Shown piece by piece: positions 469-38,530 of a DNA stretch of 64,000 bases. Under the pieces are notes generated by a model. The model was given only the letters and a program-made list of their open reading frames with translations. It was not told where the DNA came from and did no database searches. The DNA is from Argopecten irradians. Lineage: Eukaryota > Mollusca > Bivalvia > Pectinida > Pectinidae. How positions within the stretch are numbered: position 1 is the stretch's first letter; every line of letters starts with the position of its first letter. The stretch lies in NCBI RefSeq assembly GCF_041381155.1, contig NC_091137.1, forward strand, positions 24,349,655 through 24,413,654, in the 5' to 3' direction. Made by a program: the position numbers and the translations under genes.

Positions 469-641
469 ATGGCATGATGTTAGGTACATTTGCGTTTTTG
501 TGATCAAAGTGACCAGGTTACGATTTTTCGAAACAAACTTGCAGAGTTCAGTAAAATCGTTTGTAACCTATATGAAAAGCTTTGACTTCAGTCAGTTTTT
601 GACTCACATGTTGTTTGGAGAAATCGGTGCCTGGGTCATAT

Positions 642-3600
642 TTAATCCACCTCGTCTATTGTGAAATCCACGGCTGGTGCTGGTCTGGTAGACTTGTTTC
701 CAAGAGTGGATGACGTGTCTCCCCTTCCCTTTCCCCACCCCTTTGATAACCCCTTGGATTTCCGAGGTGCCTTATTCTGAACTCTACCACTGATGAAATG
801 TAATTTCTCATTTCTACAGTGGTTAATTACATCACTATTTAAATTCACAAGACTGGAGACATCACTTTGTAGTAGTGATAGTTTTTCCTCAAACATGTTT
901 TGTTCAATGGATTCTTGACTTGCAATCCAGTCCTTGACTTCTCCACATTTATTCAATACTGTTTGCTTCACATCACCATGTATATCTTTCCCATCCTCCA
1001 CGGCGGCCTCAATGTTTGTGATAAAACTCACAAGCTCCAGTTTTGACGTTACTGTCGACAGGTTCTTTTCGTCAATTTCTTTTGAACTTGTGGCACTCTC
1101 AATGATGTCCTCTAGCTCATTATAGTCGTAAAACGCTAAAAGAGGTAAAGATTTGAGAAAAACCATGAGGTGTTATGATTTTTTTTCATAGCATTTTCGA
1201 AAAGATTATATAAAATATACCAAGTATGTCAAACCCTATGGATTGATGGGTTGAGAAAATGTTCCATTCTCATTTGAATATTTTCACTATCTTGCTTTAT
1301 CTACGACTTCTCCATAAAAATCTATTTGAAATCTTGGTTTATATAATCTATTATAAACCAATTGTTACATATATTAATTGATTCGGTATCGATTAATAAT
1401 CGATTATAACATTTTCACTAAGGGAATCGAATACTTTAAAACAAATTGTGCCCATGCCAGACCTGTTATGATAAAATCACGAGTAATGCTATCATTTCAA
1501 TCATTTTGTCATATCCCTTACATTTAAAATCCGTGAAAGAACATGACTGAGACTTCCTTGAGAATCGGTTTACTGCAGTGACGGTTAGAACGCCATTTGA
1601 GTCAATTTCGAAGGTGACGTCAATCCGAGCCCGTCCTCTGGGTTCAGGCCAAATCCCTGTCATTTCAAACATCCCGAGGTCATTATTATCAACAGAGAAA
1701 CATCTCTCTCCTTCAAACAACCGAAATACCATGGTGACCTGGTCGTCATGGTATGTTGTAAATGCCAGGGTCTTTTTACATGGTATCGTGGCATTCCGTG
1801 GTACCATAACCATCATGACGTTCTCTGCAGTTTCCAGACCTAGCGATAGTGGTTCTACATCTAGTAGTAGTAGCTCGGTTAGTTGTTCGGATTGAGGATG
1901 TCCTGCCAAAATATTTGACTCCATAACTGTAAAATCAAAAATACATAAAGTGGTATTAAAACCTTCATAAAACAATAATGAACAGAGATTTGAAATCAGT
2001 TTAACGTTCTATCTTGTTTTTTTATATCTGAAAATATCCGACTACGTTCCCATATTTGTTTCACATTCTCCTTATACCCATCTTTTTTGTGATCTTATTT
2101 TTGACTCCCCACTCGTATCCATACCGACGCTGTCCTATGTCCATTTCAATCCCCATTTGCGCTACTCTCTTTTTTCATTCCCATTGGTGTTTACCTCCGC
2201 TTTTACGTCTGCTTTTCTCATCTTATTTCCTACCGTTTTCACGTTTCCCTTTTCTACTCTTTCCATGTTTAAATAAAGCTATGATAACCTCGTTCCAATA
2301 CTATGTTTATCATTCCCATGCTCTCCCAACTCCCGCAAACCATAAACTCATCCCATTTGTTTTTTATATTACTTTCGTCCCGTTTTTAAAATGTTCTTCA
2401 CATCTTTCAGTTTCGAAGTGATATATAGACATGCAAAATATCGCTAGTTTAATCAATAGGGGATAGTAACTGAACACAACACAGACATAGACATTAATCA
2501 TACAACGTTTGCCTATTGCTCACCGTAAAAGGTCATATGGTGATAATATTCTGTATTTCATATTACAGGGTTATATGCCCTTGCTGGTATGTATTGGTTG
2601 ACGTCATGTGTTTGCGAGCGTAACGTCATACTTTTTCACAGAACACGACGTAAAATGCACCCACAAAATAATGACGTCACAATGGATACCTACCCTCAAG
2701 GGAGTTAACTCTGAAGAATGTAAAGACGGAATATCTACTATCGGACATGATGAACACTTACCACAGCCATAGGAGACGATATCCTCCGGATCAATGGTAC
2801 CGGGTAAAACCTGTTCCTGGAATTTCTTGGTCAGAATTTCTGATAATTTTGGTATCTTCGTTGAGCCTCCCGCCATCACCACAACGTGTATATCTTCTTG
2901 ACTCACATTCGCATCCTTTAATGTCTCATCAATTAATTTTATTGATTGGTTGAAAAGGTCCATGTTAAGCTCTTCGAATTTGGCTTTTCTCACGCTTGTT
3001 TTGTAGTCTGTATCGTTGTGTAAGTTCTCTATCAATATATTTGTATATGACGATGCTGAGAGGCATTCTTTTGCCTTACAACATGCAGCGCACATGCGTC
3101 GCATGATCCTTGAATCATTCTGAAGGGTTGTCTTGTTTTTCTTATCATATTAATTTAAGAGAAAACCTGCTAAGCGTTCGTCAAATCTATTTCCGGAAAC
3201 ATCTAAATGTGAAGCTGTGTGAAGAATTTCGTATATGCCCTCCTCAATGAGAAGCACTGAAATTTTGAGGGTTTTACCGCCAATATCAACTACCAACACT
3301 TTGATATCCTTATCCAAAGACTGAAATCAGATAAAAAAAATTACACAGACAAATAAGAACTCTAAATGAATTTTGGCAGTACTGCCAAAATCAGATTTAC
3401 GTCTGTAATGTAGTAAAATGAGTACATAATGTCAAACTATGAAGCCACGTTGTGGTCTACAATTTCCTTTCACATTATTGCAGTGTTATGTGTTGTTAGT
3501 AATTATTTGCCTTTATGGAGATCTGTTTTCATCTTAACATACATAAAGCATAAAAACGAAGAACTTTTACCGTGCAAAACGTCTGTGTCGTAACTAATGT

Positions 3601-5821
3601 TTATAAGGCATTATGCATGTTTGTCTATAACTTTGAATGATTTTCACAGACGAATTCATTGAAACATATTGTTTGCAATAGATTACTGACGAAAAAATAG
3701 CATGTCAAAAATTTTGCCCAGTTACGGTAACTTTAAAATGTGTTTATTAAAAGATGAAAATAAATGAAATACATATTGGTAAACAATCAATTATCAAAAC
3801 GTTTTACTTTGTGGTCTTAATTTAATACATTTCTGACTATTAAAGGAACACTACCTTTTCTAAACGGCGTCAGATTTTCAAAATGGAAATATATTACTAG
3901 ATTGATAATTTTGTAGAGTCTAAAAGTCATTAGCTTATATAGCCTTAAACTACATTTACCATCACCTTCTAAACAATTTATTTAAAATAAATTAAATCTT
4001 ATTATGTTTCCCGCTGTCGTCCTAATCATTGTACGTTATGTACTGGACTATCACTACGACAGACGGCAACACAGCGAACTTCACTGTAAACGTACATTAT
4101 GCAGAGAAAAATGCACCTGTTAGGTATTGTAACCTCATCTCAGGCCATCGATATATATATATATATACTTGCGTTGTGTTGTTTTAAAGAAACTTATTTT
4201 TTGTTTCGGAAAGGTCTTAGGCCTTTAAATTGCAATATAAAAGCTGATAATACAACAAATATCGCGCAGTTGAAGAAAACAGATTCCCGATAATATTTAA
4301 ATGCAAAAAAATGAATTCAACAAAAAAATAATGAAGTATAAACCCTATTTATTTACCCAAAATATCCACACACATACAAATATTATTCACTAATCGATTT
4401 ACTACAAGAAGTACATACCTTTCTGTCAAGACTATAAGCAATACACACACTTGTTGGCTGGTTTATAACCCTCAATGTATTGAGACCAACAGCATTGCAT
4501 GCGTCTTTGACGGCCTGGCGACCAGTATCGGTCATCAAAACCGGTACCGCAACCACAGCATTCACAGCTTCCTGGAATGATAAAAAGTAAGGTAAAATGA
4601 ATGTCTGAAACATAATCAAGTATCCGCATAGTCCTCTCATAACTAATATCCAATAACTAGGTTACCAATACTAGCTGGTACCGCAATCAAAGCCTTGTGA
4701 ACGCGGTCTACTGTGAGGATGCAGTTTAACACTTAAGCAATATCGAAGTCATTGGGTGGGTATAATGTCAGTGATAGTAACCCCTGGAGTATCGGGGGTA
4801 GGATTCGTTAGAATATGCTTGAAAGGATTTTGTATAGAAACCGGCAGTTACCACAACATTCGCAATCAATGTTCAGTAGCAAATTAACATGGAAACATGC
4901 ATCGCATCCGTGCGTTCTGGGTTCGATCATGCCATAGGAAATGTTTGACAAAGTAGATCGGAGCTGGACTATTCTGTTAGAAAAATATTTTGATTAAGTC
5001 TCAGAATAAAATAAAAAGAATGGTAGTACCGCACCAACACCGACATTAGTTAGTTTTCTCACCTTGCCCAAATGTCGCTGGACTATGTCCTTGATTTTGA
5101 CCAGTAGGTGGGTGAGAATATCTTTTGGTGAGAGTGTCGTTTCGACACCAGTGATCTCCACTTTAAACCGTTTTTCCTCTGGATCCACTTTCAACAGAGC
5201 TGTTAAACCTACACGTGTTAAATCATAATCTGATGTATGATGTGCTATGTAAGGTTCCTAGGAGTTATCGGGAATGTTCAGTGTGTTTCGATATCGTAAA
5301 GCGCTGCCAATTTGGAAACAAATAGGAATTACGTGAGCGCAAATGTCTCCTCAGAAAAAATGTATTGTAGTCAGCATTAAAATCTAAATATTTTTTTACT
5401 TGAATTTTTCTTAGTTCTTTTTCTCATGGGAACTTCGTATTTGATAAATGTGTTTTGTTGTGTTGTTAAAAAGAATGACGATATCTGCAAGTACTTTTAT
5501 ATTGGGAGGGGGCTCAAAATTGATATTTTGTCTAACCGCCTGCTCGTAAAACGCATTATCCGAACCTGTACCTAAAAAGACGTTGTGAGGATTCCTTGAG
5601 AAGGATGTCAGAGCTTCGTGACCCGCCACCACGCCCACATCCGTAACTGCTACAACAGATGGTATACATTTGTTTCCCAACTCGTCCACCAGTGGTTCTG
5701 GTTTTCCGGATTTTGATGACCACGTACAAGCTCTACAATTAGTGTCCCCAATATCCAGCCCAATAACTCGAGGGGGAGCTGTCTTTCGCTTCTGAGCTGG
5801 CTGCATTTCGCTACCCTACTC
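642..5821 (-). pseudogene. Divergent HSP70-family gene, copy A, decayed
   Basis: Minus-strand homologue of the gene at 19215-26099. Coding exons in order are 5806-5572, 5346-5063, 4571-4419, 3320-2762, 1926-1522 and 1135-642. An acceptor 15 bases before the ATG points to an upstream untranslated exon that I cannot place. Two in-frame stops stand where copy B has a codon: TAG at 5258-5260 (Trp in B) and TAA at 3150-3152 (Glu in B). Splice signals are otherwise kept and the last exon is open to a C-terminal IDEVD. Both stops fall in the nucleotide-binding domain, so no full-length protein is expected. Retained splice sites and about 95% similarity suggest fairly recent loss of function. The exon 1-2 junction is the least certain part of the model. 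Confidence 0.8.
2547..2733. mobile_element. Palindromic MITE in the divergent HSP70-like pseudogene, copy A
   Basis: Long terminal inverted repeats are related to those of the better-preserved element at 18650-18838. Shared features are the outer TTACAGxGTTA block, the CCTTGC..GGTA block and inner TGACGTCA palindromes. It lies in the intron between the exons at 3320-2762 and 1926-1522, and the same insertion is in copy B at about 21132-21318. It therefore predates the duplication. Confidence 0.65.
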
Positions 5822-6211
5822 CTGAAAGCAAACACAAGAAACAGTAAAAATGTTATCAATTTTGACGAATCAAATAAAATGGTTCATCAAAAAATTAGCT
5901 TAATCAATAGGATTAGTAGAAATCATTTAACTAATCATGCTACTTTTCAATGTTTTTATTGAGTCCTTAATATTTTGGCCTACTTGACTCAATTTTATCT
6001 CAGACCAGCCAGAAGCCAAAATGACATTAAAGAAGAAGAAGAAGTTATAAGAAAATGACACCAACCCATCCACAGTAATATTCGACTTTAATGGTTAGTC
6101 ATTGTTATTCCTGTTATTTCCACAAAATGGAGGATTCACTTGCAACTCCTATATGTTTATTTTTTCTATAAAACGAAATAAATATTTTTGTCTTTGTTTT
6201 CACACTAATTC

Positions 6212-6332
6212 ATATTTCTATGAAAAAAAAGTTTATCAGATTTTGAAATAAATTTTGTATGATTATTTTTACGCGGATTCACACAGTTTGCTTAGAAAAT
6301 TCCTTTCATGCCGGGATGAAATTAAAAAAAAG
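6212..6332. repeat. Decayed foldback-element fragment
   Basis: Contains ACGCGGATTCACACAGTTTGC followed by TTTCAT.CCGGGATGAAATT. This is a degraded relative of the near-perfect palindrome at 42534-42687. The same fragment is in copy B (about 26570-26670), so it predates the duplication. Confidence 0.5.
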
Positions 6333-7564: not shown

Positions 7565-7829
7565 AAAGTGACACTGTATTACATGACAAGACAAGAACAA
7601 GCAAAACATGCATGTACATTGAAATCTGTAATCAATGAGATTAAACGTAGCAAGCACGTATACAACACTATACTTAAAATATAAATACACCAATATTTTT
7701 TTAAGCATAACATGTAGAATAATGAAATACTGTATTGTAATGTACGATGTCTCACCATCTACCTATTTCCCCTCCCTTACAGAGATTATATAGGCCTATA
7801 GATCTAATACAACATCATATGTATATATG

Positions 7830-8001
7830 CTAGACTGGCCACCAGTCTCTAGGATATTAAAAAAATCACTAAAAATTGGCTTGATTATATTTGTCTCTAC
7901 TAAGTGCCTGATTCTAAGTTTTAAACTAAGGGGAGATAATCTATTAAATAACTCTACTGAGAAAGTCTTATCAGCAACTTAGGGTCTGGTGGCCAGTCTA
8001 G
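7830..8001. mobile_element. hAT-like MITE, 172 bp, copy A only
   Basis: Terminal inverted repeats CTAGACTGGCCACCAG and its complement bound 172 bp of non-coding sequence. They are flanked by an 8-bp direct repeat TATATATG at 7822-7829 and 8002-8009. Copy B at about 26985 has the unoccupied sequence ATGTATATGCCT. An 8-bp target duplication is typical of hAT elements. The family name is inferred from this length only. Confidence 0.75.
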
Positions 8002-8639
8002 TATATATGCCTACATGTAGTATAGCTATGTAGCTAATAAGTACGTGAATTCATCCTTGTGTATACAAACCATGCAGTAAAGAAAACAACGTCGGTGATG
8101 CTATAGTGTCGTAAACATAACATCTTTTGTTTTGCTTACCAGATAATATATATAAATAGATCCTGTCTTTCATTTGTTTACATGTTGTCAGGTGGCCGAT
8201 TACTGTCAGAGTAGCCTCCCTTTACATGTGAAAAAGTTAGAATAGGCCTAGTAAATACACGAAGTAAAAAAATCCTTTTACAAAGTCTCAATCTTTATTG
8301 ATTTCTAGAAACTGGTGCATTAAGCTCATTTTGAATTTGCATTATCAAAGTTTCACCTGCGGATGGTACGCCTACATATATAAGAATCCCCACGCAAAAT
8401 TCTGAACTGCAGTAGATCTAGAGATAATTCACTAACATATGGTAATAAAATGGTAATACTGTTATTTAGAGTTGAAATAAAATTATTATTGTCATGTTTA
8501 AATGTCACATTGGTAGATTTGGTCTACAGTTTTAGGTCCATTGTAATTATACAGCTATAAATTACAATAGACTATATTCATTATTAAGTATTTTATTGAA
8601 ATAGACTACCCTATGGCAAGCCGTTTGGGTTTTTACCAA

Positions 8640-8857
8640 TCGAAAGATATCTGTATTTCTACAACAATTAGAGATATCTGTATTTGAATTAGAGATATCT
8701 TTTATTGAATTATAGATATCTTTAATTGAATTATAGATATCTGTATTTAAAATGAAGACATCTCAATATAAACAAAATTAAAAATATTTTTATTTAAAAT
8801 AGGGATATCTTTAATTCAAATAGAGATATCTCTATTCAAAATAAATCAAGATATCTT
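8640..8857. repeat. GATATC-rich minisatellite before the copy A hsc70
   Basis: About ten degenerate units of 20-24 bp share a palindromic AGATATCT core separated by AT-rich TTTGAATTA-like linkers. It occupies the place where copy B has about 2.6 kb carrying the hsc70 promoter and untranslated exon. It ends about 60 bp before the splice acceptor that precedes the start codon. Confidence 0.75.
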
Positions 8858-8918
8858 TAAAAAAATTGTGAATATTTATTAAAAACCTGCTTTAGTTTTA
8901 TTTCGTTTTTGTTTTTAG

Positions 8919-12377
<3,459 letters not shown>

Positions 12378-14462
12378 AGATCAGGCTTAAGACTCGGGAC
12401 AAAATAAATTACCATCATATACGGAACAATGCTCAAGGAAGTGATCTATTAATTAAAGTTACCAATCATGAATATATTAAAATCTAGTCAAACGTGAAGT
12501 GTCTGTCAAACCAAGACCAATAGAAAATGCTGACTTGCTGCATATGCTTAATGCTTTTAATAAATTGCAGCTTTACGAAGATCAAAACAAAACAAAAAAA
12601 ACAATCCATGCTTTATTTCAAATAAGATTATTATTGTTACTGAAGTTAAATTTTGTTGATTTTAGTTTTCTTCGTTTCCATCCAGTTTAATCTAGCACTT
12701 GTCAGAATAGTAAAATGTATTTATACAAAATGACTTTTTTCATCATTCCATGGCATCAGATCATGAGATGCAATAACAAATACTTGTCAAGCTTAACAAG
12801 ACCCCAAGTAATATGTAACCATCGAGTGGATAAAACTGTAGATGCTTTTTTTCAAACGTTGAATGAAGTATCCATAAATGCTAAGATGTTAAAAAAAGAG
12901 GAAAAAAGAAATGTTAAAAAATTGAATAAAAAGCCATTATTTAATTATCAGCTACCTAGCAATTTCCTGAGGGAAAGAAATTGGGTTTGTAGGCAGACTA
13001 TACTAAGATAATTCTACTTGACATTTCACGTAGTGGCATAATCGCTGATCGTTTCGTGCGGTCTTGTGTTTCGTTTTGGGATAAAAATAAAGCTGTCAAA
13101 GTCAAAATTATGTTATGTAAATAGACTCAGTTATGTAATTCCATTCATGAAACCGGTAGGATATCCGTCGTTGCTATCATCTTATTGTCGGTCGTCTCTG
13201 CCGCAAAAATAGATTACTTCATAAATTAACCTTCAGAATAAACTTAATGTTTCGAATCTCCTAATACGTCGATATCGAGATACCAAAGCGGCTGTTGATT
13301 AGTCCCACGTTCTATTTATTGTAACATCATACTTTGACGTGATTTTTGTGACGTCGCAATTAGCGGAACATCATCTCAGTTTAGGGTAGAATATTTATTT
13401 TTATTTTCTATATGATATACATGTAGTATTGTATTTTCTTTATTGTTTTTGTTGGGGGTTGTTAAGTATTTATTTTTTATTTATTTGTTTTAAAATTATT
13501 TTTACATAAATTTGTATTAAATACAAATCATTACCGAAAAACACTGCAAGGTTTTGAAAGGTTCAGAGTTGAAGATCTTGATCAAGTGTAATGGTTGACA
13601 CCATGATCAAAAGGGGATAGGTTGGACGCCAAGGTTAGTTTGGCTCATATTGAGTGTTTGAGAAAGTGGCATGCACTTGATCTGACCTAGATTGTATAAC
13701 AGGAGTCAAAAGCATTGTTCTTCACCGTCGTACAGTTAAACCTTTTCATAGATTTTTTCTTGCATTATTAATCTACGATAAGGTCAACTGTGAAAAGTAA
13801 AGTTATATTATATAAATGATTGAAAGTACATTGTATGTGTGCATTATTGTAAAATCATTTTGCAAATTGCATTTGACATTATGCGTTATATTTGCTTTTT
13901 ACTGCTTCATTTTATATTGCTTAGTACTATTATATTATGTATTATGCTGTTAAAGGGACTAAATCGCTAAAAAATCATGTAATAAAAGATAAAAAGAATT
14001 ATAGGACTAAAATTAATTGTAAAAGTTCAGTACTTTGTGTTAATAACAATATTTAAAAGTTTGTATAACAATTTTGTTCAAAATGGAGAAAAACTGAAAA
14101 TAAATAGGACCGACCTAGTCACTATTTCATATTATTATCTTTCGGCGAGTGTAAACAACCCCTATGTGCATGCGCGACGCGTGAACATTCCAAACATCCG
14201 ATCGAAGGAAATCTCATCTGTCTAATGGACATATCTGCTATCGACTGAAAACACAAATTTATCGACTACAGGTTCCTGATTACTATGTTAATCTAATAAA
14301 CGTTGAAACGTATGCAAAAGTTTTTTGAAGAGTTTTTAAGTGTAAATAATCCTATACTGTACAGGTTTTTGTAGCCATAAAGAAGGGTTTTCATTATATT
14401 ATATGGTTTTATACTTGCTTCTACCATTATTTTATTTTCATTTGTCATGATATTATGTACTA
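12378..14462. other. 3' flank of copy A, then spacer, no gene seen
   Basis: Up to about 12950 this matches the 3' flank of the copy B hsc70, with AATAAA-like signals (for example near 12402). After that it is AT-rich sequence unique in the window. Open frames at 12499-13011 are short, AT-driven and not conserved in copy B. I see no gene. Confidence 0.6.
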
Positions 14463-18838: not shown

Positions 18839-19214
18839 CACTGTATAGCACTTCATAGAGAGAACACCTTTAGGCAATGCCTGCTGTCTAATTGACATTT
18901 GCAAATAAAGTGCATTGTTTGGAATTGAAAATAATTGATAGCACTACATCGATTATTTCACCAAGAGTTATATTTCAACTGTGAATTCATCAAATGTTAG
19001 TATTTTCCATGTTAAATGCGTTTTTATTCATTTGAAGATGTATGGCATGGTGTTAGGTCCATTTGCGTTTTTGTGATCTAAGTGACCAGGTTACGATTTT
19101 TCGAAACAAACTTGCAGAGTTCAGTAAAATAGTTTGTAACCAATATGAAAAGCTCTGACTTAAGTCAGTTTTTGACTCACATTATGTTTGGAGAAATTGG
19201 TGTCTGGGTCGTAT

Positions 19215-22200
19215 TTAATCCACCTCGTCTATTGTGAAATCTACGGCTGGTGCTGGTCTGGTAGACTTTTTTCCAAGTGTGGATGACGAGTCTCCCCTTC
19301 CCTTTCCCCACCCCTTTGATAACCCCTTGGATTTCCGAGGTGCCTTATTCTGAACTCTACCACTGATGAAATGTAATTTCTCATTTCTACAGTGGTTAAT
19401 TACATCACTATTTAAATTCACAAGACTGGAGACATCATTTTGTAGTAGTGATAGTTTTTCCTCAAACATGTTTTGTTCAATGGATTCTTGATTTGCAATC
19501 CAGTCCTTGACTTCTCCACATTTATTCAATACTGTTTGCTTCACATCACCATGTATATCTTTCCCATCCTCCACGGCGGCCTCAATGTTTGTGATAAAAC
19601 TCACAAGCTCCAGTTTTGACGTTACTGTCGACAGGTTCTTTTCGTCAATTTCTTTTGAACTTGTGGCACTCTCAATGATGTCCTCTAGCTCATTATAGTC
19701 GTAAAACGCTAAAAGAGGTAAAGATTTGAGAAAAACCATGAAGTGTTATGATTTTTTTGCATAGAATTTTCGAAAAGATTATATAAAATATACCAAGTAT
19801 GTCAAACCCTATGGATTGATGGGTTGAGAAAATGTTCCATTCTCATTTGAATATTTTCATTATCTTGCTTTATCTACGACTCCTTCATAAAAATCTATTT
19901 GAAATCTTGGTTTATATAATCTATTATAAACCAATTGTTACATATATTAATTGATTCGGTATCGATTAATAATCGATTATAACATTTTCAGGGAATCGAA
20001 TAATTTAAAAAAAAATGTGCCCATACCAGACCTTTTATGACAAAATCATGAGTAATGCTATCATTTAAATCATTTTGTCATATCACTTACATTTAAAATC
20101 CGTGATAGAACATGACTGAGACTTCCTTGAGAATCGGTTTACTGCAGTGACGGTTAGAACGCCATTTGAGTCAATTTCGAAGGTGACGTCAATCCGAGCC
20201 CGTCCTCTGGGTTCAGGCCAAATCCCTGTCATTTCAAACATCCCGAGGTCATTATTATCAACAGAGAAACATCTCTCTCCTTCAAACAACCGAAATACCA
20301 TGGTGACCTGGTCGTCATGGTATGTGGTAAATGCCAGGGTCTTTTTACATGGTATCGTGGCATTTCGTGGTACCATAACCATCATGACGTTCTCAGCAGT
20401 TTCCAGACCTAACGACAGTGGCTCTACATCAAGTAGTAGTAGATCGGTTGTTTGTTCAGATTGAGTATGTCCTGCCAAAATATTTGCCTGCATAACTGTA
20501 AAATAAAAAAATACATAAAATGGTATTAAAATCTTCACAAAACAAAATGCAAAGAGATTTTAAATCAGGTTAACTTTTCACCTTGTTTCTTATTTCTGCA
20601 AATATCCGACTACGTTCCATTATTTGTTTCACATTCTCCTTCTACCAAGCTCTTTTTGTGTTCTTGTTTTTGACTCCCCATTCGTATCCATACCACGCTG
20701 TCTTATGTCCATTTTAATTCCCATTTGCGCTACTCTCTTTTTTCATTCCCATTGATGTTAACCTCCGCTTTTCTCTTCTTATTTTCTACCATTTTCACGT
20801 TTCTCTTTTCTACTCTTTTCATATTTAAATAAATCTATGATAACCTCGTTCCAATACTATGTTTATCATTCCCATGCTTTTTCAACTCTCGCAAACCATA
20901 ACCTCATCCCATTTGTTTATTAGTTAATTTCGTCCCGTTTTCTTTCTTTTAAAATGTTCTTCACATCTTTCAGTTTACTAAATGACCACTTTGATCTATT
21001 CGAAGTGATACATAGACATGCAAACTATTACTAGTTTAATAACTAGGGGATAGTAACTTAACATAACGCAGACATAGAAATTAATCATACAAAGTTTGTC
21101 AATACGCTCACCGTAAAAGGTCATATGATGATAATGTTCTGTATTTGTAAATCACAAAGTTATCTGTCCTTGCTGGTATGTATTGGTTCTGACGTCATGT
21201 GTTTGCGAGCGTAACGTCATACTTTTCATGGAACGCGACGTAAATTGCTCCCACAAAATAATTATGTCAATGGATTCCTATCCGCAAGGGAGCTAACTCT
21301 AAAATATGCAAAGACTGAACTTACCACTTACCACAGCCATAGGAGACGATATCCTCCGGATCAATGTTACCGGATAAGACCTGTTCCTGGAATTTCTTGG
21401 TCAGCATTTCTGATAATTTTGGTATCTTCGTTGAGCCTCCTGCCATCACCACAACGTTTATATCTTCTTGACTTACATTCGCATCTTTTAATGTCTCATC
21501 AATAAATTTTATTGATTGGTTGAAAAGGTCCATGTTAAGCTCTTCGAATTTGGCTTTTCGCACGCTAGTTTTGTAGTCTTTATCGTTGTGTAAGTTCTCT
21601 ATCAATATATTTGTATATGACGATCCTGAGAGGCATTCTTTTGCCTTACAACATGCAGCGCACATGCGTCGCGTGATCCTTGAATCATTCTGAAGGGCTG
21701 TCTTGTTTTTCTTATCATATTCATTTAAGAGAAAATCTGCCAAACGTTCGTCAAATCTACTTCCGGAAACATCTAAATGTGAAGCTGTGTGAAGAATTTC
21801 GTATATGCCGTCCTCAATGAGTAGCACTGAAAGTTTGAGGGTTTTACCACCCATATCAACTACCAACACTTTGATATCCTTATCCGGAGACTGAAATCGG
21901 ATATAGAAAATTTAGCATTTTGAATATACATGTATAAGTATGCTGTAATTTCCTTACTGACGAGTCAACAAGAGTTTTTCATATTTTAATTACTACCAAA
22001 TGTAACTAAGATTTTGAGAATTACGCTACTTGCAATGCATAGTTTTAATTTTACACAGACAAATAAGAACTGTAAATGAATTTTGGCAGTATTTCCAAAA
22101 ATCAAATTTACGTCTATAATTAGTAAAATGAGTACACAAGATCAAACTATGAAGCCACGATGTGGTCTACAATTTCCTTTCACATTTTTGCAGTGTTATG

Positions 22201-25200
22201 TTCTATTAGTAATTATTTGCCTTTATGGAGCTCTGTTTTTATCTTAACATACATAAAAACGAAGAACGTTTAACGTGCAAAACTTCTGTGTCGTAACTAA
22301 TGTTTATAAGGCATTGTGGATGTTTGTCTATAACTTTGAATCATTTTCACAGATGAATTCATCGAAACATATTGTTTGCAAAAAATTACTGACGAAAAAA
22401 TAGCATGTCAAAAAAATTGCCCAGTTACGGTAACTTTAAAATGTGTTTATTAAAATATATATAAATGATATATATCGGTAATCAATCAATCATCAAAATG
22501 ATTTAGTATCTGGTCTTTATTTAATACATTTCTCATTTTTAACGGAATACTCAGATTTTAAAAATGGGAATATATTACGAGATTGATAATTTTGTAGAGT
22601 CCCAAAAATTAGTAACTGACAGAGCCTTAAACTACATTTACCATCACTTTCTGAACAATTTATTTATAATAAATTCATTCTTATTATTTTTAATGTCATC
22701 GTCCTAATAACTGTGCTTTATGTAGTGGACTATCACTGCGCCAGACGGCAAAACAGCAAAATAAAACTTCACTGTTAATGTAGATTCTGCAGAGAAAATT
22801 GCACCGGTAAGACTTCCTTTTGCACCCCGCACTCAAATAGGTATCAACAGGTAACAACCATATATAATCTTCTTCGATTGATTTTAGTTTGATTCTGATA
22901 TTTATTACAAATGTTTATGTGAAAATGATTTATAAGTCATATAAGTGAATAATAGTACACGAAAAAGTTATAATTCTCAGCAAACGCTCTGTGGAGCAGT
23001 GGATAGAGCACCGGGCCAGGAACTGTCAGTTAAGTCGATGGATCGAATCCCACTAGAGGCATATAAATAAATTTGAAATCTTCAAATATGTTATCATTGT
23101 GTTGTGATTTGAGATATGTTGTTGAGTGAAAATAAGTGTGTTGTAGGGAACAGAAAATAGAAACAACATATATATATATATTTAGGTTCAATTTTTAAAA
23201 CCCCCACCAACCCCACCAACCCCCTAAACCCTCCTCCCCCCCCCCCCAAAAAAAAAACAAACAAAAAAACAACAAAAAAAAAATCAAAAAAAAATCAACA
23301 ACATTTTTTTCTCATTGACCCCTTAAAATAAACCCTTTAGACACTTGGGGTACCAAACCCCAGCAAATTTGAGTGGGGTGCCAAAGAAAGTATTTCCATT
23401 TCACCTGTTTGATGTTGTAACCTCTTCTCAGGCCATCGATATATTATACAAATATTTCATGGGCTACTGTGCTCTAGTTCATAATATTTAACCCGAGGTG
23501 ATGGTAATCAACAAATGTTATATTGCACGAGGCCAAAGGCCGAGTGCAATATAACATTTGTTGATTACCATCACCGAGGGGTAAATATTATGAACTAGAG
23601 CACAGTAACCATGGAATATTTGTTTTATTACATAATCACCAGTTTTTCAGTTGAATATTTTTTTTATAAAACGAATACGACAATCACTTAACAAAATCAC
23701 CAACACCGTACCGTACGGAAAAAAACCTTAATATCCTATTGAAGATTGACGTATAGCCCACGTACGTCACGTTGTAACTCCGGTTTGGATGTCTCATTGT
23801 CTGTTTTTACATTATTAGACCTGCTTGCAGCCTTTTGATCTAATACATGAATTCATCGTGTCCGTCCTTTACTCGGTACAGTAAACGTCTACATGACATG
23901 CTTGATTCGAGATCTATAAATCCAGCGCGAAATTGAGCGTGAACCTTTGTGACGTCATAATAACGTGATTCACTGTTACTCGCAATTCCTCGGAAGTTTT
24001 CTACAAAACTAGACAACAACAGCGAGGTGTTCCTAAAGCCGTGCAATATAACATCTCGAACCATGCAATATAACGTTTCCATGGAAGCGTGCAATATAAC
24101 TTCGAACCGTGCAATATAACAAGGTTTTATTGAACGGTCGGTGTAATAGTTGAAAATATTATATTTCTTCATATATAGATTGGTGTAAACAAATTATGTA
24201 ATAAATATATATATATACTTGTTCCTTTTCAGCCAACGTCAATTCCCGGCGAACCATCCTTCATGATTGTTGACGTCTGCTACAAAACTAAAAATAGCCC
24301 CACGCGAATTTGACAGATATGGGAGATAACACCCGTACTTCATCTTGCACAACACAAAAGAGTTCCGATTCTAGTACTAATTTTTGGATCGCGAGGAAAG
24401 AAATTCTAATTACTTCCGGGTATTGAACGACGACGCGTCATAAAATGTGAAAGACTTTTGGCACGACACTGTATATACTTGCGTTGAGTTGTTTTAAAGA
24501 AACTTTTGTTTTTTGTTTTGGAAAGGTAGTTGGCCTTTAAATTGTAATATAAAAGCTGATAATACAACTTATACCGCGCAGTAGAAGAAAATAGATTCCC
24601 GATAATATTTAAATGGAAAAAAAACCCGAACAAAATATATTTTGGTGTTGTACATAGCTTCTTAAATGTAAACAAAATACCAAATAATGAAGTATAAACC
24701 CTAATTATTTACCCAAAATATCAACACGCATACAAATATTATTCACTAATAGATGTACTACATGTAAAGGAGTACATACCTTTCTGTCGAGTCTATAAGC
24801 AATACACACACTTGTTGGCTGGTTTATAACCCTCATTGTATTGAGACCAACAGCATTACATGCGTCTTTGACGGCCTGGCGACCAGTATCGGTCATCGAA
24901 ACCGGTACCGCAACCACAGCATTCACAGCTTCCTGGAATGATAAAAAAGTAAGGTAAAATGAATGTCTGAAACACAATCAAGTATCCGTATAGTCCTCTC
25001 ATAACTAATATCCAATAACTAGGTTACCAATACTAGTTTGTACCGCAATCAAAGCTTTAGGGAGAGAACTTATATAGGCTATGTCTGTTGTTCAACCCTT
25101 TTCAAGTAATATTTGAAATAAAATTTGTTGAAATTGAATCAAAGCCTTGTGAAAGCAAATTAACACGGAAACATGTGTCGCATCCGTGCGTTCTGGGTTC

Positions 25201-26099
25201 GATCATGCCATGGGAAATGTTTGACAAGTAGATCGGAGCTGTATTATTCTGTTAGAAAAATATTTTGACTATCAAGTCTCAGAATAAAATAAAAGAAAGG
25301 AAGCACAGCACCAACACGGACATCGGTAAGTTTACTTACCTTGCCAAAATGTCGCTGGACTATGTCCTTGATTTTGACCAGTAGATGGGTGAGAATATCT
25401 TTTGGTGAGAGTGTCGTTTCGACACCATTGATCTCCACTTTAAAGCGTTTTTCCTCTGGATCCACTTTCAACAGAGCTGTTATACCTAAACGTATTAAAT
25501 CATTATCTGATGTATGGTATGCTATGTAAGGTTCCCAGGAGTTAACGGGAATGTTCAGAGTGTTTAGATATCGTAAAGCGCTGCCAATTTGGAAAAAAAT
25601 CTTAATTACATGAGCGCAAATGTCTCGTCAGAGAAAAGTGTATTGTAGTCAGCATTAAAATCTAAATATTCTTTTACTTGAATTTTTCTTAGTTTTTTTT
25701 TCTCATGGGAACTTCGTATTTGATAAATGTGTTTTGTTGAGTTGTTAAAAAGAATGACGATATCTGCAAGTACGTATATGTTGGAGGGGAGCTCAACATT
25801 GATATTTTGTCTAACCGTCTGCTCGTAAAACGCATTATCCGAACCTGTACCTGAAAAGACGTTGTGAGGATTCCTTGAGAAGGATGTCAGAGCTTCGTGA
25901 CCTGCCACCACGCCCACATCCGTAACTGCTACAATAGATGGTACACATTTGTTTCCCAACTCGTCTACCAGTGGTTCTGGTTTTCCGGATTTTGATGACC
26001 ACGTGCAAACTCTACAATTAGTGTCCCCAATATCCAGCCCAATAACTCGAGGGGGAGATGTCTTTCGCTTCTGAGCTTGCTGCATTTCGCTACCCTACT
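19215..26099 (-). CDS. Divergent HSP70-family protein, copy B, likely intact
   Basis: Exons in coding order are 26085-25851, 25623-25340, 24932-24780, 21890-21332, 20495-20091 and 19708-19215. Phases 1,0,0,1,1 match hsc70 and the frame gives about 709 aa. An acceptor just before the ATG implies an upstream untranslated exon. The N-terminal ATPase-like domain (about 10-405) keeps GLDIGDT (near 16-22), DMGGKT (near 236-241) and AGGSTKIPK (near 375). The equivalents of hsc70 Thr13, Lys71, Gly203 and Asp206 are changed to Asp, Leu, Lys and Lys, so hydrolysis is probably impaired. The linker DLLLLDV, a complete beta substrate-binding domain (about 415-545) and a helical lid follow. The tail is basic (RKSKGLSKGWGKGRG) and ends IDEVD, where hsc70 has GGMP repeats and EEVD. 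Its role is unknown; a holdase or pseudo-chaperone is inferred. The exon 1-2 splice is the weakest call. Confidence 0.75.
21132..21318. mobile_element. Palindromic MITE in the divergent HSP70-like gene, copy B
   Basis: Orthologue of the insertion at 2547-2733, in the intron between the exons at 21890-21332 and 20495-20091. It has the CCTTGC..GGTA and GACGTCATG blocks of the family at 18650-18838. It ends close to the donor of the exon at 21332. Confidence 0.65.
22827..23405. mobile_element. Insertion in intron of copy B with tRNA-like SINE head
   Basis: Absent from copy A, where the flanking sequences join near 4120. About 22985-23062 resembles a tRNA: a box-A-like TGGAGCAGTGGATAGAGC and a box-B-like GGATCGAATCC. 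The acceptor-stem ends do not pair well, so this is a tRNA-derived SINE head and not a tRNA gene. A pyrimidine then A-rich tract (23205-23300) follows and may be the tail. Confidence 0.55.
23449..23622. repeat. Near-perfect palindrome, about 85-bp arms
   Basis: Arms 23449-23534 and 23538-23622 are reverse complements with few mismatches around an AAA centre. The tip sequence GTGCAATATAAC recurs four times at 24041-24120. The block lies in a second insertion of copy B (about 23452-24470) that is absent from copy A. Confidence 0.85.
24041..24120 (+). repeat. Four copies of CGTGCAATATAAC
   Basis: Copies at 24041, 24062 (CATGCAATATAAC), 24088 and 24108 are spaced 21, 26 and 20 bp. The same 12-mer lies at the tip of the palindrome at 23449-23622, which links the two parts of the insertion. 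Confidence 0.8.
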
Positions 26100-27361
26100 C
26101 TTGAAAGCCAACACATGAAATAGTAAAAGTAAAATGTTGTCAATTTTGACGAATCAAATAAAATAGTTCATCAAAACATTAGCTAAACCAATAGGATTAA
26201 TTGAAATATAAACAGTTAACTAATCATGCTACTTTTCAATGTTTTATTGAGTCCTTAATATTTTGGCCTACTTGGCTCAATTTTATCTCAGAACAGCCAG
26301 AAGCCAAAATCATATTAAAGAATAAGAAGAAGTTATAAGAAAATGACATCCACCCAACCATGGTAATATTCGACTATAAGCGTTGGTAAATATGTTCAAT
26401 CATTGTTATTCCTGTTATTTCCACAAAATGGAGGATTTCACTTGCAACTCATATACGTTTATTATTATTTTTTTTATCAAAACGAAATAAATGGGTTTTT
26501 TTTCTTTGTATTCACACTAATTCGACTTTCTTAATAGCCGATTCTTTTTCTTCATATTTCTATGAAAAAGATAATTTCATCGGATTATGAAAGAAATTTT
26601 GTATGAATATTTTTTACGTGGATTCACACAGTTTGCTTAGAAAATTTCTTTCATGCCGGGATGAAATTTAAAAAAAAAGTGACACTGTATAGCAAGACAA
26701 GACTAAACAAGAACAAGCAAAACATGCATGTACATCGATATCTGTAATCAATGTGATTAAACGTATCATGCACGTATACATCACTAGACTAAAATATAAA
26801 TAAAACAATAATTTGTTATAAACATAATATGTAGTATAATGAAATAATGTATTGTAATGTACGATGTATCGCCATCTTCCTATTTCCCCTCCCTGTCTGA
26901 CTTGCGGAATGATACACTTCGATTAATCATAAGTCACCTAAGTAATGGAACCTTTACAGATATATCTAATACAAAATGTATATGCCTATTAGCTAGTGCT
27001 ACATGTAGCTAATAAGTAGATCTGCATGAATTCATCAAGTCCCTGTGTATACAAACCATGCAGTAATGATAACAACGTTGGTGATACTATAGTGTCGTAG
27101 ACATAACATGTTTATCATTTGTCTTTCATTTGTTTACATGTTGTCAGGTGGCCGATTATCGTCAGAGTAGCCTCCCTTTACATATGAAAAGTCAGGGTAG
27201 GACCAATAAATACACGAAGTAAAAAAATCCTCTTGCAAAGTGCTCAATCTTTATTGATTTCTAGAAACTGGTGCATTAAGCTCATTTTGAATTTGCATTA
27301 TCAAAGTTTCACCTGTGGATGGTAGAGATAATTCACTAACATATGGTAGAATCTAATAAAA
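26100..27361. other. Intergenic region between the head-to-head genes, copy B
   Basis: It aligns with copy A 5822-8440 minus the two copy A insertions. It contains the decayed foldback fragment at about 26570-26670. The promoter and first exon of the divergent gene should lie here but I cannot place them. I see no coding region. Confidence 0.5.
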
Positions 27362-28710
27362 TGTTTTTTTGTTGTTGTTGTGTTTTTTTGTATCTTTTTT
27401 ATTTTTAGAAACAACACATTGTACAAAATCATTTTGAAATACATATTATACATTATTCAACTCATTCTTTCATCACCGATTTCAATCTCCTTGGTTTGTG
27501 CTAGTACGTAATCATTCATATTATGACCCATTCATCTTCAATTTCAGTTTTGCCTTTAGCACAAGCATTACTACTGGTTGACATCATATATATATATATA
27601 TATATATTAAGTATGACATCATAATTACTCTCTTTCATACAAACATGCACACTCTTGCTATCGATTCTTACATACTTTTATATTCTTTCATTGTCAGTCT
27701 AATATACAATATAAACCTGACCTGTATTATATATGCGTTATCTTGAGATTACGTAATGAGACATCATACTAAATCAGTTATTTTTAAAAGGAAAATACAG
27801 TGATGTTGTTTTTCTAAAGAAGAGGAGAAAGAAGCGAGAAAGCGAAAGGGTTTGTATAGTGGATAGATAAGAGGGTAGAGAGAAAGGAGAGAGAGTTATA
27901 GTAAGAAAGATCTCAGAAGCCACAGCTAATGTTACATGTGTATGTGAGTTTTTGATTATGATTTACTGGTTGTTAATATTCCTTTTTTAAATTATTGAAC
28001 CAGGGTTACATATTGATTAAGCTATTCCATTTATTCCAATAATTGTCTAATTTGTAAATATGAATGTCACCATTGCTGACTGCAGTATATTTTTCTGTGA
28101 AGTACGCTTCCTTTATAAATTTAGTTAAGGCACATACTGATAAATTCTCTTGATAACATCTTGTGCTATATATGTATTGTTTTAATACTAAAATAATCAT
28201 ATTATCTACCCTATTATGTAGTATTGGTTGATTAAATAATCCAAAAAAGGAATGTTTCTTTGTTAAAGGCGAATGGGATGAGTAATCTATCTAATAGGGA
28301 TTCAAAGTTAATTAAAAAAATTCTGCACATCTATACATTCCCATAATATGTACTATTGTCTCTTTTTCCGTTTTACAACGATAACAATTAGCACTTTCAG
28401 CAAGCCCACTTTTAGACACGAAAGAATTGGATGTTAAAATGTGTTGGTTGATTCTATATTGTAACCAATGTAGTTTGGAGTTTTTAGTTCCGGTAGAGAT
28501 TGTAGCATTTTTATTTAAGAGGTTGTAAAAATCTGGTAATAAAATGTTAATACTGTTATTTAGAGTTGAAATAAAATTATTATTGTCATGCTTAAATGTC
28601 ACATTTGGCTAATTTGGTCTACAGTTTTAGGTCCATTGTAATTATACAGCTATAAATTAAAAAAGACTATATTCATTTTTCAGTATTTTATTGAAATAGA
28701 CTACCCAACA
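27362..28710 (-). mobile_element. LINE fragment (3' part of reverse-transcriptase ORF)
   Basis: Minus-strand frames 28602-28312 and 28200-28006 read like the C-terminal part of a non-LTR retrotransposon polyprotein: LHWLQYRINQHILTSN, then a CYRCKTEKETIVHIM zinc-knuckle-like block, then a Trp-rich end KLDNYWNKWNSLIN. A purine-rich 3' region and an A-rich tail (T-rich on the plus strand, 27362-27400) follow. Only the 3' portion is present and the two frames are not continuous. Copy A keeps the 5' edge of this fragment (about 8440-8620) but lacks 27362-28541, apparently removed between two TAATAAAATG repeats. Exact clade is not determined. Confidence 0.6.
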
Positions 28711-29376
28711 CTTTTTAAAGATATATATTGTAAAAATCGTAGTGTTTGAAACATAATTTTCCCTAATACTACATATAAACAGATGTCTCCATTTTTCATA
28801 TCATGGTTTATTTACATGTCAGAAATGCATATTTCAGCAGGTTCGAGTGTCCACAAAACACGTCCGAAATTAATTTAAATACACGACAGCGCGTTTTCCT
28901 AGCTTTTTGAGATTTTCATCACTTTCTTATTTAAATGGTGACATATTAGGCTATACGGATTGAAATGTCATGTAAAATCATCTCAACTTAATTGTGCACG
29001 TGTTCCATTTTCCTGTTAGGAACGATTTAAATAGCTACTGTAACAGTAGGCTAGGCCAATTAAGTACCAAGTACAAATTGCATAATATCAATATTAAAAG
29101 TCCTTGTTTCTATTTAAACATTTAAATTTTGAATAAAAAAAATATTAGAATCTATCTGTTAGGCCTACATAAATTTACAAATTATTCCAACAATATAAAA
29201 CCGTAAAAAAACATATCTAATACTTTACTAAACTTGTAACGTCAGTAACGTTGTTAAATCTAGAATATTGACATCTTTAACCGATATTCGGTTTTTAACG
29301 TTAATAGTAATATCGTGTGATTTTCTATATTTATCAGTATTATTTACGTACTCTAGTTATCATTGATGAGTTCTTT

Positions 29377-29529
29377 TTCTGGAACTATGTGGAAAATCTA
29401 GAAAGGGGGTGTTATAAACACGTGACTTGTTTTCTCTGCTCTGATTGGCGAATATTGTGGAATGTTCCAGATTTCACGTCATATCCTCAAGTGCGCATAA
29501 ATACTGGTCGCATAACGCCGGGAACCAAG

Positions 29530-29530
<1 letters not shown>
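29377..29530 (+). promoter_or_regulatory. hsc70 copy B core promoter with heat-shock elements
   Basis: GGAATGTTCCAGA at 29459-29471 contains the heat-shock-factor pattern GAAnnTTC with a partial third unit. A second TTCTGGAA stands at 29377-29384. Between them is an inverted CCAAT box (GATTGG, about 29443). A TATA-like CATAAATACT lies at 29497-29506, about 30 bases before the likely transcription start. This arrangement is typical of animal hsc70/hsp70 promoters. Copy A has no counterpart. Confidence 0.75.
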
Positions 29531-36600
<7,070 letters not shown>

Positions 36601-38530
36601 TTTACGAAGATCAAAACAAAACAAAAAAACAATCCATGCTTTATTTCAAATAACATTATTATTGTTACTGAAGTTAAATTTTGTTGATTTTAGTTTTCTT
36701 CGTTTCCATCCAGTTTAATCTAACACTTGTCAGAATAGTCAAATGTATTTATACAAGATGAACTTTTTCATCATTCCATGGCATCAGATCATGAGATGCT
36801 ATAACAAATACTTGTCAAGCTTAACAAGACCCCCAAGTAATATGTAACCATCGAGTGGATAAAACTGTAGATGCTTTTTTCAAATGTTGAATGAAGTATC
36901 CATCAATGCTAAGATGTTAAAAAAGAGGAAAAAAGAAACATTAAAAAATTGAATAAAAGAGCCAGAACAAAAGATGTATTTCTGTTTTCATTTTTAACAG
37001 TGAATTCAGTTTGTAATTGAACAATTAACTAGTGAAGGTTGCAATAATTTACTTTCAGTGTATATTTAGTAGGATATTTTGATTTGGGAAGAGGACCTAT
37101 CAAATTAAAACAAAATGAAATTGAAAACGATTTTTTGGAAACCTATTTTCTTTTCAGATGTTGGGCTATTCCCTTCAGTAGTCCCATGAAGTAACCTGTT
37201 GAAGTTATACAACAGTTGGTTGAATATATATGATCCATACGTGCGGTTGAATAAATTCTCTAATTCTATATGGAGGTTCCTCTATGGCCTTAGTTGTGGA
37301 TCGGTCAGCAAGATGGCCTATAGGATCTCGGATTTTGATAATTGAAGTTTGTTACCGCTTCTCGGGGGAAAATACTGAAGAGTTCTTTCTCAAATTTTAA
37401 AAATGTAACTCGTATAACGTGTTACACATAATTGGATCCTAGTTGTGCATAGGGCATCTTGGGACTGATCCGTCAACAAGATGACTGAAAGTCAGAGAAA
37501 AGATCCTTCTTTCATAATCGCCCAACATTGATCATTCTCTGGGATCACCTTACTTTAAGGTTTCCAGCAACAATGTAGGCGAGATCGTATCGCTTACCAA
37601 AAGTACCTAACTATTGCCCAAGGATTTGTCCTATATCCTTGCAGTGCAAAAAAAGATTATGTCCACAAACTATCAGCGCCACGGTACGCTAATTTGGGCG
37701 TCGTATTATTTGCTATTTCAAAGGTTTTTTTTATCATTATTTGAAACTTTCTTATTTTATATCCATGGAGGTTCCTTTTGAACCCCACGTTCACGTGTCA
37801 AGGAAAGATAATACATTGCACATTCACGTGTCAAAGCAAAGATAATACATTACGCTAGTACTCGTGATCATCGACGTATGTTGGTATCGCTTGGGCCTTT
37901 TTCATGCATGTATACATCTAGGGTTCGACCAATCGCAAAACATATCCGTTAAAAGATTATATTTTTTGTGATGCTTGATTTTTTATTTCGACATTTAAAC
38001 AAAGGGTCTTGGGACATGCATATCATGAAGTTGCTATTTTCCATCCAGAAAGTTCCGATGTTTGTGCAGATTTTATCTTGCAATAATGCAAGGGTGTAGC
38101 TGCAATATATACGCTAATTGATATATTCTAATATTGTAGTCTGACTTCTACACGCTTTCTGCGATATCGATCGCGCAGTGTCTTTCCGAAAATACATGTA
38201 CTTTTAATTTTTAAAATGGGAATATGAAACGAGATTGATAATTTTGTAGAGTCGCACAATTTATTCAAGTTACATATAACCTTATGAACAGTTAAATGAA
38301 AATAAATTAAATATGAATTTTCATGACACTGGCCGCCTTATCGTTCATTCTCCACTAATTTGCATATTTTCAGAAATGAAAACATAAAATATGAAAATTG
38401 AAAACAAAGTTCTTATGTATTGTCATTTGTTTGGCAAATATCTCTACTTTTTAAATCCAAAAGGGCTGGCTCCTATCTTTACTCAAAGAAAAGTTATAAT
38501 TGTTACAGTCAACCATCATAATTTGGTAAA
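36601..38530. other. Downstream of hsc70 B, no gene seen
   Basis: Duplicon similarity ends near 36957. Beyond it is AT-rich unique sequence. A 34-bp direct repeat containing CACGTGTCAA and AAAGATAATACATT occurs twice at about 37789-37854. I see no exon-like structure. Confidence 0.5.

Follow-up and report, generated by a model that had tools for sequence, protein, structure and literature searches.

In a 64,000-nucleotide stretch of the Argopecten irradians genome (the window), we found a divergent HSP70 homologue, which we tentatively read, at a little under even probability, as a fast-evolving, ATPase-dead pseudo-Hsp70 acting as a holdase or as a competitor of Hsc70. The gene occurs twice in the window. 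The copy that is open throughout (copy 2) lies on the minus strand at 19215-26085, and its six exons, separated by GT-AG introns, encode 670 amino acids with no stop. The features of the locus are as follows.

25851..26085, minus strand: copy 2 exon 1, from the ATG to a phase-1 donor (CAG/GTACAG); D10 kept, T13 changed to D, insertion in phosphate loop 1.
25507..25580, minus strand: 74-nt former start of exon 2 (ALRYL..., carrying Leu71), which does not stay in frame when joined to the hsc70-like donor and is probably now intronic.
25340..25506, minus strand: copy 2 exon 2 with its preferred, candidate start (cag/ATAATG), lacking the segment homologous to hsc70 residues ~69-85 (K71).
24780..24932, minus strand: copy 2 exon 3; E175 changed to Q; D152, R155, R171, N174 and T177, which we take to be J-domain docking positions, kept.
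21332..21890, minus strand: copy 2 exon 4, NBD lobe II; D199 and T204 kept; G203 and D206 changed to K, G229 to S, E268 to C, R272 to E.
20091..20495, minus strand: copy 2 exon 5, linker DLLLLDV and SBD-beta; V438 changed to M, I440 to F.
19215..19708, minus strand: copy 2 exon 6, helical lid, basic tail and C-terminal FTIDEVD; no Pfam match on its own.
642..5806, minus strand: copy 1 of the divergent gene (exons 5806-5572, 5229-5063, 4571-4419, 3320-2762, 1926-1522 and 1135-642), with TAA at codon 242 in exon 3320-2762.
31380..36406, plus strand: neighbouring intact hsc70 (h2), six exons, intron positions and phases matching copy 2, ending in IEEVD.
8923..12377, plus strand: upstream copy of hsc70 (h1), whose codon 615 is TGA, ahead of the GGMP/EEVD tail.

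Five intron positions, together with their phases, are common to copy 2 and h2, and the divergent gene was thus born from hsc70 by DNA duplication; it is paralogous to the cytosolic Hsc70 gene that contains introns. The exon-1 donor is identical in place and phase to that of hsc70, and only the exon-2 acceptor lies 74 nt downstream in our preferred model. Four other HSP70 stretches of the genome, unlike these intron-bearing genes, hold long single ORFs (five ORFs). Copy 2 and the neighbouring hsc70 share about 38% identity (228/597 aligned residues; 55/111 in SBD-beta), and the best sequence matches of copy 2 in the PDB are to Hsc70/Hsp70 (HSPA2, HSPA1A and Hsc70; E 8e-124 to 4e-118). When exons 1, 4, 5 and 6 were scanned singly against Pfam, the first three scored above the PF00012 cut-off.

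The first-pass annotation had claimed that Thr13, Gly203 and Asp206 were replaced by Asp, Lys and Lys, and all three changes are present in alignments with hsc70. Beyond that claim, the general base E175 is changed to Q, and on the adenosine side E268 to C and R272 to E. K71 is absent (or Leu), G229 and E231 are both changed to S, D366 to E (as in five of the genome's other Hsp70 loci) and Y15 to N or R, depending on the alignment used, and phosphate loop 1 carries a two-residue insertion. Copy 2 retains D10, D199, T204, G338/G339/S340 and I343. The earlier reading was therefore right about the first three of these, about the linker (DLLLLD) and about the presence of a substrate-binding domain, to which a lid can be added; its adenosine-side GGSTKIPK keeps the glycines, Ser and Ile, but the motif carries R342 changed to K. 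Copy 1 also went unnoticed in the earlier reading; at nucleotide-contact positions it differs from copy 2 only at 71 and 231. In the genome's other Hsp70 loci (20 columns, aligned loci only, with h1 included and the query h2 and both divergent copies left out), T13 is kept in 10/10, K71 in 15/15, and G203 and D206 each in 18/18, while E175 is E in 14/15 and D in one. The catalytic residues lost in copy 2 are also intact in all three bacterial DnaKs checked (13 fetched).

Glu175 and Lys71 are described as forming the catalytic salt bridge (PMC9438496), and the PDB holds, by their titles, structures of Hsc70 mutants at T13 (2bup/1bup), K71 (1kaz/1kay), E175 (1qqo) and D206 (1qqn). Laboratory ATPase-dead mutants of Hsc70/Hsp70 (K71M/S, E175S, D206S and T13G) are altered at the same catalytic positions as copy 2, for which an inability to cycle is likewise predicted; copy 2 differs from them in being natural, in bringing many substitutions together and in its changed substrate pocket. 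Loss of ATP hydrolysis, already proposed by the first-pass annotation, is strongly predicted from these residues, and we regard it as highly probable that copy 2 is ATPase-dead. It is improbable, by comparison, that the protein still depends on nucleotide, binding or slowly hydrolysing ATP in a rearranged site in which K203/K206 and D13 swap charges. The retained D10, D199 and T204 and the glycine loops on the adenosine side would allow it, as would the 11/20 invariant nucleotide-contact positions that are kept and a lobe II whose fold is predicted to be intact; nevertheless, neither E175, the general base, nor K71, with which it forms the salt bridge, is left, E268 and R272 are gone too, and the charge of D206 is reversed.

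These losses are not concentrated at the active site. At positions that we take to contact the nucleotide, invariants are kept as often (11/20) as elsewhere in the NBD (55/128; P = 0.34), and an active-site-targeted loss is thus rejected statistically. The whole NBD has drifted and is relaxed, SBD-beta less so, as 37/55 invariants are kept in SBD-beta and linker vs 66/148 in the NBD (P = 0.0045). Structure prediction was done on single exons 4 and 5 of copy 2. The AlphaFold model of exon 4 (pLDDT 81.8, from 7 sequences) has Hsc70/Hsp70 NBDs as its best PDB matches (TMq about 0.9); that of exon 5 (pLDDT 57.9, from 8 sequences) is too poor for pocket geometry, albeit Hsp70 SBDs are still ranked top by Foldseek.

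Position 71, previously read as a change of Lys to Leu, depends on how exons 1 and 2 are joined. The Leu comes from an exon-2 start at cag/CGCTTTACG, which is out of frame with the hsc70-positioned exon-1 donor in both copies and runs into a stop within six codons in copy 2 and nine in copy 1; furthermore, the alignment of the two copies places a TAG in the Leu frame of the copy-1 exon-2 start. For these reasons Leu71 is not preferred. If exon 2 instead starts 74 nt downstream, at cag/AT(A/T)ATG, both copies stay in frame and the K71 segment is left out. The 74-nt segment differs between the copies at 6/74 positions vs 70/2013 in exons (Fisher P = 0.0496; cf. 18/268 in upstream intron 1), and hence diverges at an intron-like rate and is probably now intronic. 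For this junction copy 2 has 70 frame-keeping donor/acceptor pairs and copy 1 has 62; the five ranked highest in copy 2 by a crude splice score retain Leu, via GAG or AAG acceptors, and no Lys at the homologous codon 71 appeared among the 25 pairs listed for either copy. The loss of Lys thus stands under every listed pair. Our preferred model is that the K71-bearing segment is spliced out of copy 2, with a Leu-keeping splice being possible there.

The claim that the substrate-binding half was kept holds for sequence and linker, less so for the pocket (V438 changed to M, I440 to F) and the lid, in which 28/102 residues are identical to hsc70 and 7/20 invariants are kept. V438F in Hsc70 is reported to lower polypeptide affinity (PMC7360973). 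The C-terminus ends in IDEVD, a feature absent from the earlier reading, after a basic tail: the final 65 residues include 13 K/R and 7 D/E. GGMP repeats are absent. Copy 2 shares with Hsc70/HSPA8 the linker, SBD, lid, EEVD-like end and five introns, and differs from it in the loss of T13, K71, E175, G203, D206, E268 and R272, in IDEVD instead of IEEVD and in a basic tail instead of GGMP.

Hsp110/Grp170 have a long SBD insertion; no insertion relative to hsc70 was seen in SBD-beta of copy 2, and none of the best 60 of 164 matching chains was named Hsp110 or Sse1. STCH/HSPA13 consists of an NBD with no SBD, whereas copy 2 has both SBD and lid. HSPA12 is expanded in bivalves, but copy 2 is nearest to HSPA2/HSPA1A/Hsc70, and four loci at 21-26% identity that we take to be HSPA12 (L039-L042) are absent among its 44 listed protein matches. 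The lidless form of Ssz1/HSPA14 does not apply, as exon 6 aligns to the lid. Among the matches listed from a protein search of the assembly, no third copy of the divergent gene was found, the next full-length matches being HSP70 ORFs at 35-37%; single hsc70 exons reach 52%. Exon 4 matched 13 loci in prokaryotic contigs, all in records titled as bacterial (36-38% identity), and none in viral contigs. Among the open-access papers listed by our literature searches, none was seen to describe a full-length Hsp70 that combines these residues and domains.

The main rival to our reading, albeit an unlikely one, is a dying gene, in which constraint on the paralogue has relaxed, with copy 1 already broken and copy 2 going the same way, perhaps already disabled by an original exon-2 acceptor that is out of phase in both copies. 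Both genes of the upstream block carry a nonsense codon (TAA at codon 242 in copy 1, TGA at codon 615 in h1), and 18/19 polarisable differences between h1 and h2 (of 23, stop included) fall on the h1 side; this upstream block is in decay. Neutral decay was looked for within the genome, and, taken together, the two divergent copies show purifying selection: ω between the copies is 0.44 (bootstrap 0.28-0.75) or, by other estimates, 0.46-0.56 (P 0.0007-0.008 for <1), and neutral decay of both copies is therefore rejected. The SBD exons give 0.33-0.41 (P 0.009-0.028); the NBD exons give 0.54-0.65 (P 0.035-0.12) and are not clearly under selection alone, as a dying gene would allow. One stop was observed, where neutrality of both copies would predict 3.8-5.5. 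The stem of the divergent gene is 1.55 substitutions/site vs 0.06 for hsc70, i.e., about 25x faster evolution; neutral simulations at 0.5-2 substitutions/site (200 each) gave means of 19-29 in-frame stops and a minimum of 7, against zero in the 670 codons of copy 2. We consider it likely that copy 2 is a functional protein. Heat-shock elements were not in excess (27 near-matches vs 23.4 expected; 27 vs 25.2 expected).

An assembly artefact, with two haplotypes set in tandem and the odd residues being errors, is very improbable. In their alignable pieces the blocks share about 85-94% identity, and the nonsense codons sit together in the copy-1 block, as such an artefact would have it; yet the copies agree at all contact positions except 71 and 231, so that random errors do not explain the substitutions, intron 3 is 1098 bp in one copy vs 2889 bp in the other, and the divergent gene persists even if the blocks are alleles.

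Returning to the pseudo-Hsp70 reading, the paralogue would have lost the machinery that hydrolyses ATP, namely T13, the E175-K71 pair, D206 and, on the adenosine side, E268 and R272, and kept the predicted lobe-II fold, J-domain docking positions, linker, SBD and EEVD-like tail. Unable to cycle, it would bind polypeptide through its altered pocket with no ATP-driven release, as a passive holdase, and/or occupy J-proteins and TPR co-chaperones and so modulate the adjoining canonical Hsc70. The latter mode resembles ATPase-dead K71 mutants acting as dominant negatives; the K71S mutant of Hsp70 is described as being held in the high-affinity state, as dominant negative and as behaving like a passive holdase (PMC3520893). 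A holdase or regulator role, as first suggested, is plausible, and if copy 2 is functional, the holdase or competitor mode is somewhat favoured. Points against the pseudo-Hsp70 reading are the lack of preferential active-site loss, the V438M/I440F pocket, the diverged lid, the unclear NBD ω, the copy-1 stop, the first-ranked Leu-keeping pairs in copy 2 and the missing heat-shock-element excess.

A non-hydrolysing regulator in the style of Ssz1/HSPA14, locked, via the new basic tail, to a J-protein or ribosome/RNA and without general holdase activity, appears rather improbable. Atypical Hsp70s are described as evolving fast and modulating canonical partners (PMC3879978), and Ssz1, another natural, fast-evolving relative, as binding nascent chains without hydrolysing ATP (PMC7083937), a loss that is predicted for copy 2; the replacement of GGMP by a basic tail would also suit such a role. 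Nevertheless, Ssz1 is described there as having no lid and a detached linker, whereas in copy 2 the lid is present, the linker sequence is canonical and the end is EEVD-like.

It is conceivable, though doubtful, that copy 2 represents a lineage-specific class of full-length pseudo-Hsp70s, born head-to-head with hsc70, in which lid, linker, J-domain surface and EEVD-like tail are kept and the catalytic centre is abolished, partly via splicing out of the K71 segment, and that it has been retained so that hsc70 has a dominant-negative regulator or holdase of its own. Ssz1, the natural ATPase-dead Hsp70 compared here, also lacks a lid and normal linker. If the pseudo-Hsp70 reading is true, a natural Hsp70 with lid, linker and TPR-type tail would test whether selection can act on peptide-holding and co-chaperone docking in the absence of the ATP cycle, and whether an inactive twin can regulate Hsc70.

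The HSP70 homologue placed by the first-pass annotation at about 19215-26099 was borne out as a six-exon gene on the minus strand, termed copy 2 here. The whole block, a divergent HSP70 gene head to head with an hsc70, is duplicated in tandem (window 1-12800 and 19000-36900); matching 300-nt pieces lie 18.6-24 kb apart and share 91-100% identity. The genes in the two blocks are as follows.

26085 to 19215, minus strand: copy 2, divergent HSP70; 670 residues, six exons, GT-AG introns, no internal stop
31380-36406, plus strand: h2, the intact hsc70 neighbouring copy 2, with an IEEVD end
5806-642, minus strand: copy 1, the upstream divergent gene, with TAA at codon 242
8923-12377, plus strand: h1, the upstream hsc70, with TGA at codon 615 removing the GGMP/EEVD tail

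Of the four copy 2 exons scanned singly (1, 4, 5 and 6), the first three passed the Pfam HSP70 cut-off, and exon 6 gave no Pfam match; the closest solved chains were HSPA2, HSPA1A and Hsc70. Copy 2 and h2 have five intron places and phases in common, bar a putatively shifted exon-2 acceptor, whereas four other HSP70 stretches of the assembly (846 Mb, 1508 contigs) carry long single ORFs (five ORFs). These common introns mark the divergent gene as an hsc70 duplicate that arose at the DNA level. By general impression the hsc70 protein is that of a mollusc, probably a bivalve. A 13-sequence tree clusters the divergent gene with hsc70 against the remainder (support 82), and the stem to the divergent pair measures 1.55 substitutions per site, as opposed to 0.06 for hsc70.

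As first annotated, T13, G203 and D206 (bovine Hsc70 numbering) are replaced in the copy 2 alignment by D, K and K, respectively, and D10, D199 and T204 are retained. We also found E175 changed to Q, G229 and E231 to S, E268 to C, R272 to E and D366 to E, Y15 altered to N or R depending on the alignment, and phosphate loop 1 lengthened by two inserted residues; G12, T14, G201, G202, K271 and S275 are present. The GGSTKIPK segment, previously regarded as kept, preserves G338, G339, S340 and I343 but has R342 changed to K. In a comparison with the genome's remaining HSP70 loci, which counted h1 but not h2 or either divergent copy, T13 is retained in 10/10, K71 in 15/15, and G203 and D206 each in 18/18 of the loci aligned at the position; at position 175, one of the 15 aligned loci has D and the other 14 have E. 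D366 to E, among the milder changes, also occurs in five other loci. All seven residues checked were canonical in the three bacterial DnaKs examined of 13 fetched. T13, K71, E175, D206, E268 and R272 are each, by PDB titles, a mutant site with solved structures, and a salt bridge with Lys71 is reported to hold Glu175, which acts as general base (PMC9438496). With T13, E175, D206 and others substituted, the earlier proposal that ATP hydrolysis was given up is supported as a strong prediction from sequence.

Position 71 needs a more cautious reading. Its Leu was taken from ALRYL, coded directly after a good-looking acceptor (cag, then CGCTTTACG), and the exon-1 donor of copy 2 lies at the hsc70 position and phase. 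Joined to that donor, the ALRYL acceptor shifts the frame, with a stop within 6 codons in copy 2 and 9 in copy 1; a TAG was also read off the alignment in the ALRYL frame of copy 1. A CAG acceptor 74 nt downstream regains the frame in both copies, deleting the segment homologous to ~residues 69-85. Between the copies, 6/74 sites of this segment differ, a rate close to that of upstream intron 1 (18/268) and above that of the exons (70/2013; P = 0.0496). Copy 2 has 70 frame-keeping donor/acceptor pairs and copy 1 has 62; among the 25 listed for each, none gives Lys at the homologous codon, and the five top-scoring pairs of copy 2 keep Leu via GAG or AAG acceptors. Since many pairs keep the frame and the top-scoring ones keep Leu, the exon-2 start is putative: Lys71 is missing with every listed pair, and the route to Leu through the ALRYL acceptor with an hsc70-like donor breaks the frame.

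Loss targeted at the active site was rejected statistically, as, of the positions invariant among the reference loci, copy 2 keeps 11/20 nucleotide contacts and 55/128 others in the nucleotide-binding domain (NBD) (P = 0.34). By such counts the NBD is broadly relaxed and the peptide-binding half better kept, because 37/55 invariants persist in the substrate-binding domain (SBD)-beta plus linker, as against 66/148 in the whole NBD (P = 0.0045). D152, R155, R171, N174 and T177, presumably J-domain/allosteric positions, are all retained. Exon 4 (NBD lobe II) was predicted with pLDDT 81.8 from seven sequences, and its fold matches Hsc70/Hsp70 NBDs (TM ~0.9); exon 5 was predicted poorly (pLDDT 57.9), Hsp70 SBDs nonetheless being the top-ranked structural matches. 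The supposed keeping of the substrate-binding half holds for SBD-beta and linker, but the lid keeps 7/20 invariants and the pocket has V438 changed to M and I440 to F. As V438F is reported to lower polypeptide binding by Hsc70 (PMC7360973), ordinary substrate binding by copy 2 cannot be taken for granted. The C-terminus is IDEVD, and a basic tail stands before it instead of the GGMP repeats, the final 65 residues containing 13 K/R. GRGDS, an integrin-binding peptide sequence, lies in this tail (exon 6, 19215-19708), with GRGDT in copy 1; no signal peptide is apparent, so it is probably a coincidence.

The upstream block is decaying, because each gene carries a nonsense codon and 18/19 polarisable hsc70 differences fall on h1 (23 listed, stop included). 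Between copy 1 and copy 2, dS is 0.062, dN 0.027 and omega 0.44 (bootstrap 0.28-0.75); omega is 0.25 for h1/h2. A second counting gave 27.5 synonymous and 41.5 nonsynonymous differences, one stop, and omega of 0.46-0.56 by assumed transition bias (<1, P 0.0007-0.008); were both copies neutral, 3.8-5.5 stops would be expected. Omega is 0.33-0.41 in SBD exons (P 0.009-0.028) and 0.54-0.65 in NBD exons (P 0.035-0.12). Polarised on hsc70, copy 1 has 8 changes (stop included) and copy 2 has 4, with 29 unplaceable. Neutral drift simulated at 0.5-2 per site yielded a mean of ~19-29 stops. Omega below 1, the long stem and this simulation trace copy 2 back to a gene that was long under selection. After the duplication, selection probably continued on one member of the pair or on both, and it may still act on copy 2 today.

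A long palindrome around TGTTATATTGCAC (window ~23460-23610) in intron 3 of copy 2 is without match in copy 1 and looks like a small transposon. A large inverted repeat (52339-56050 and 60262-64000; listed arm pieces 99-100% complementary, spacer ~4.2 kb) extends to the window end; a single ORF within the repeat (52698-53099) was checked and had no Pfam match. Tandem arrays at 6438-7497, 45356-45655 and 51642-52002 have similar-looking units of ~142-145 bp. Elsewhere in the genome, the long single-ORF HSP70s (loci L043-L046) do not end in EEVD: three ORFs have EEVY there, and the others IDELD and EEMD. L044 contains a head-to-head pair of almost identical copies. Four tandem HSP70 genes (contig C4, 18.875-18.914 Mb), 61-65% identical to hsc70, differ from it in exon boundaries by profile matches and are perhaps BiP copies. 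A partly degenerate HSP70 (contig C2, 32.78 Mb), matched in several pieces, lies ~13 kb from an intact one.

We favour the reading, each functional step of which we infer, that copy 2 would be a non-cycling Hsp70, retaining peptide with no ATP-driven release and/or occupying J-proteins and TPR co-chaperones. The K71S mutant of Hsp70 is reported to be locked in its high-affinity state, to act as a dominant negative and to hold clients passively (PMC3520893), and Ssz1, a non-hydrolysing relative, to bind nascent chains and serve a canonical partner (PMC7083937); fast evolution is reported for atypical Hsp70s (PMC3879978). Copy 2 is paralogous to Hsc70 by descent but fails its catalytic tests. 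Identity with Ssz1/HSPA14 was rejected, copy 2 having a lid and a normal linker, as were Hsp110 (a name borne, like Sse1, by none of the 60 chains listed of 164 matched), STCH and HSPA12-like identities. HSP70 expansion in bivalves and hsc70-like expansion in a gastropod are on record (PMC4759782; PMC10969875), and a divergent duplicate is therefore expected ground; what is new, as a variant, is a predicted dead site combined with full Hsp70 architecture.
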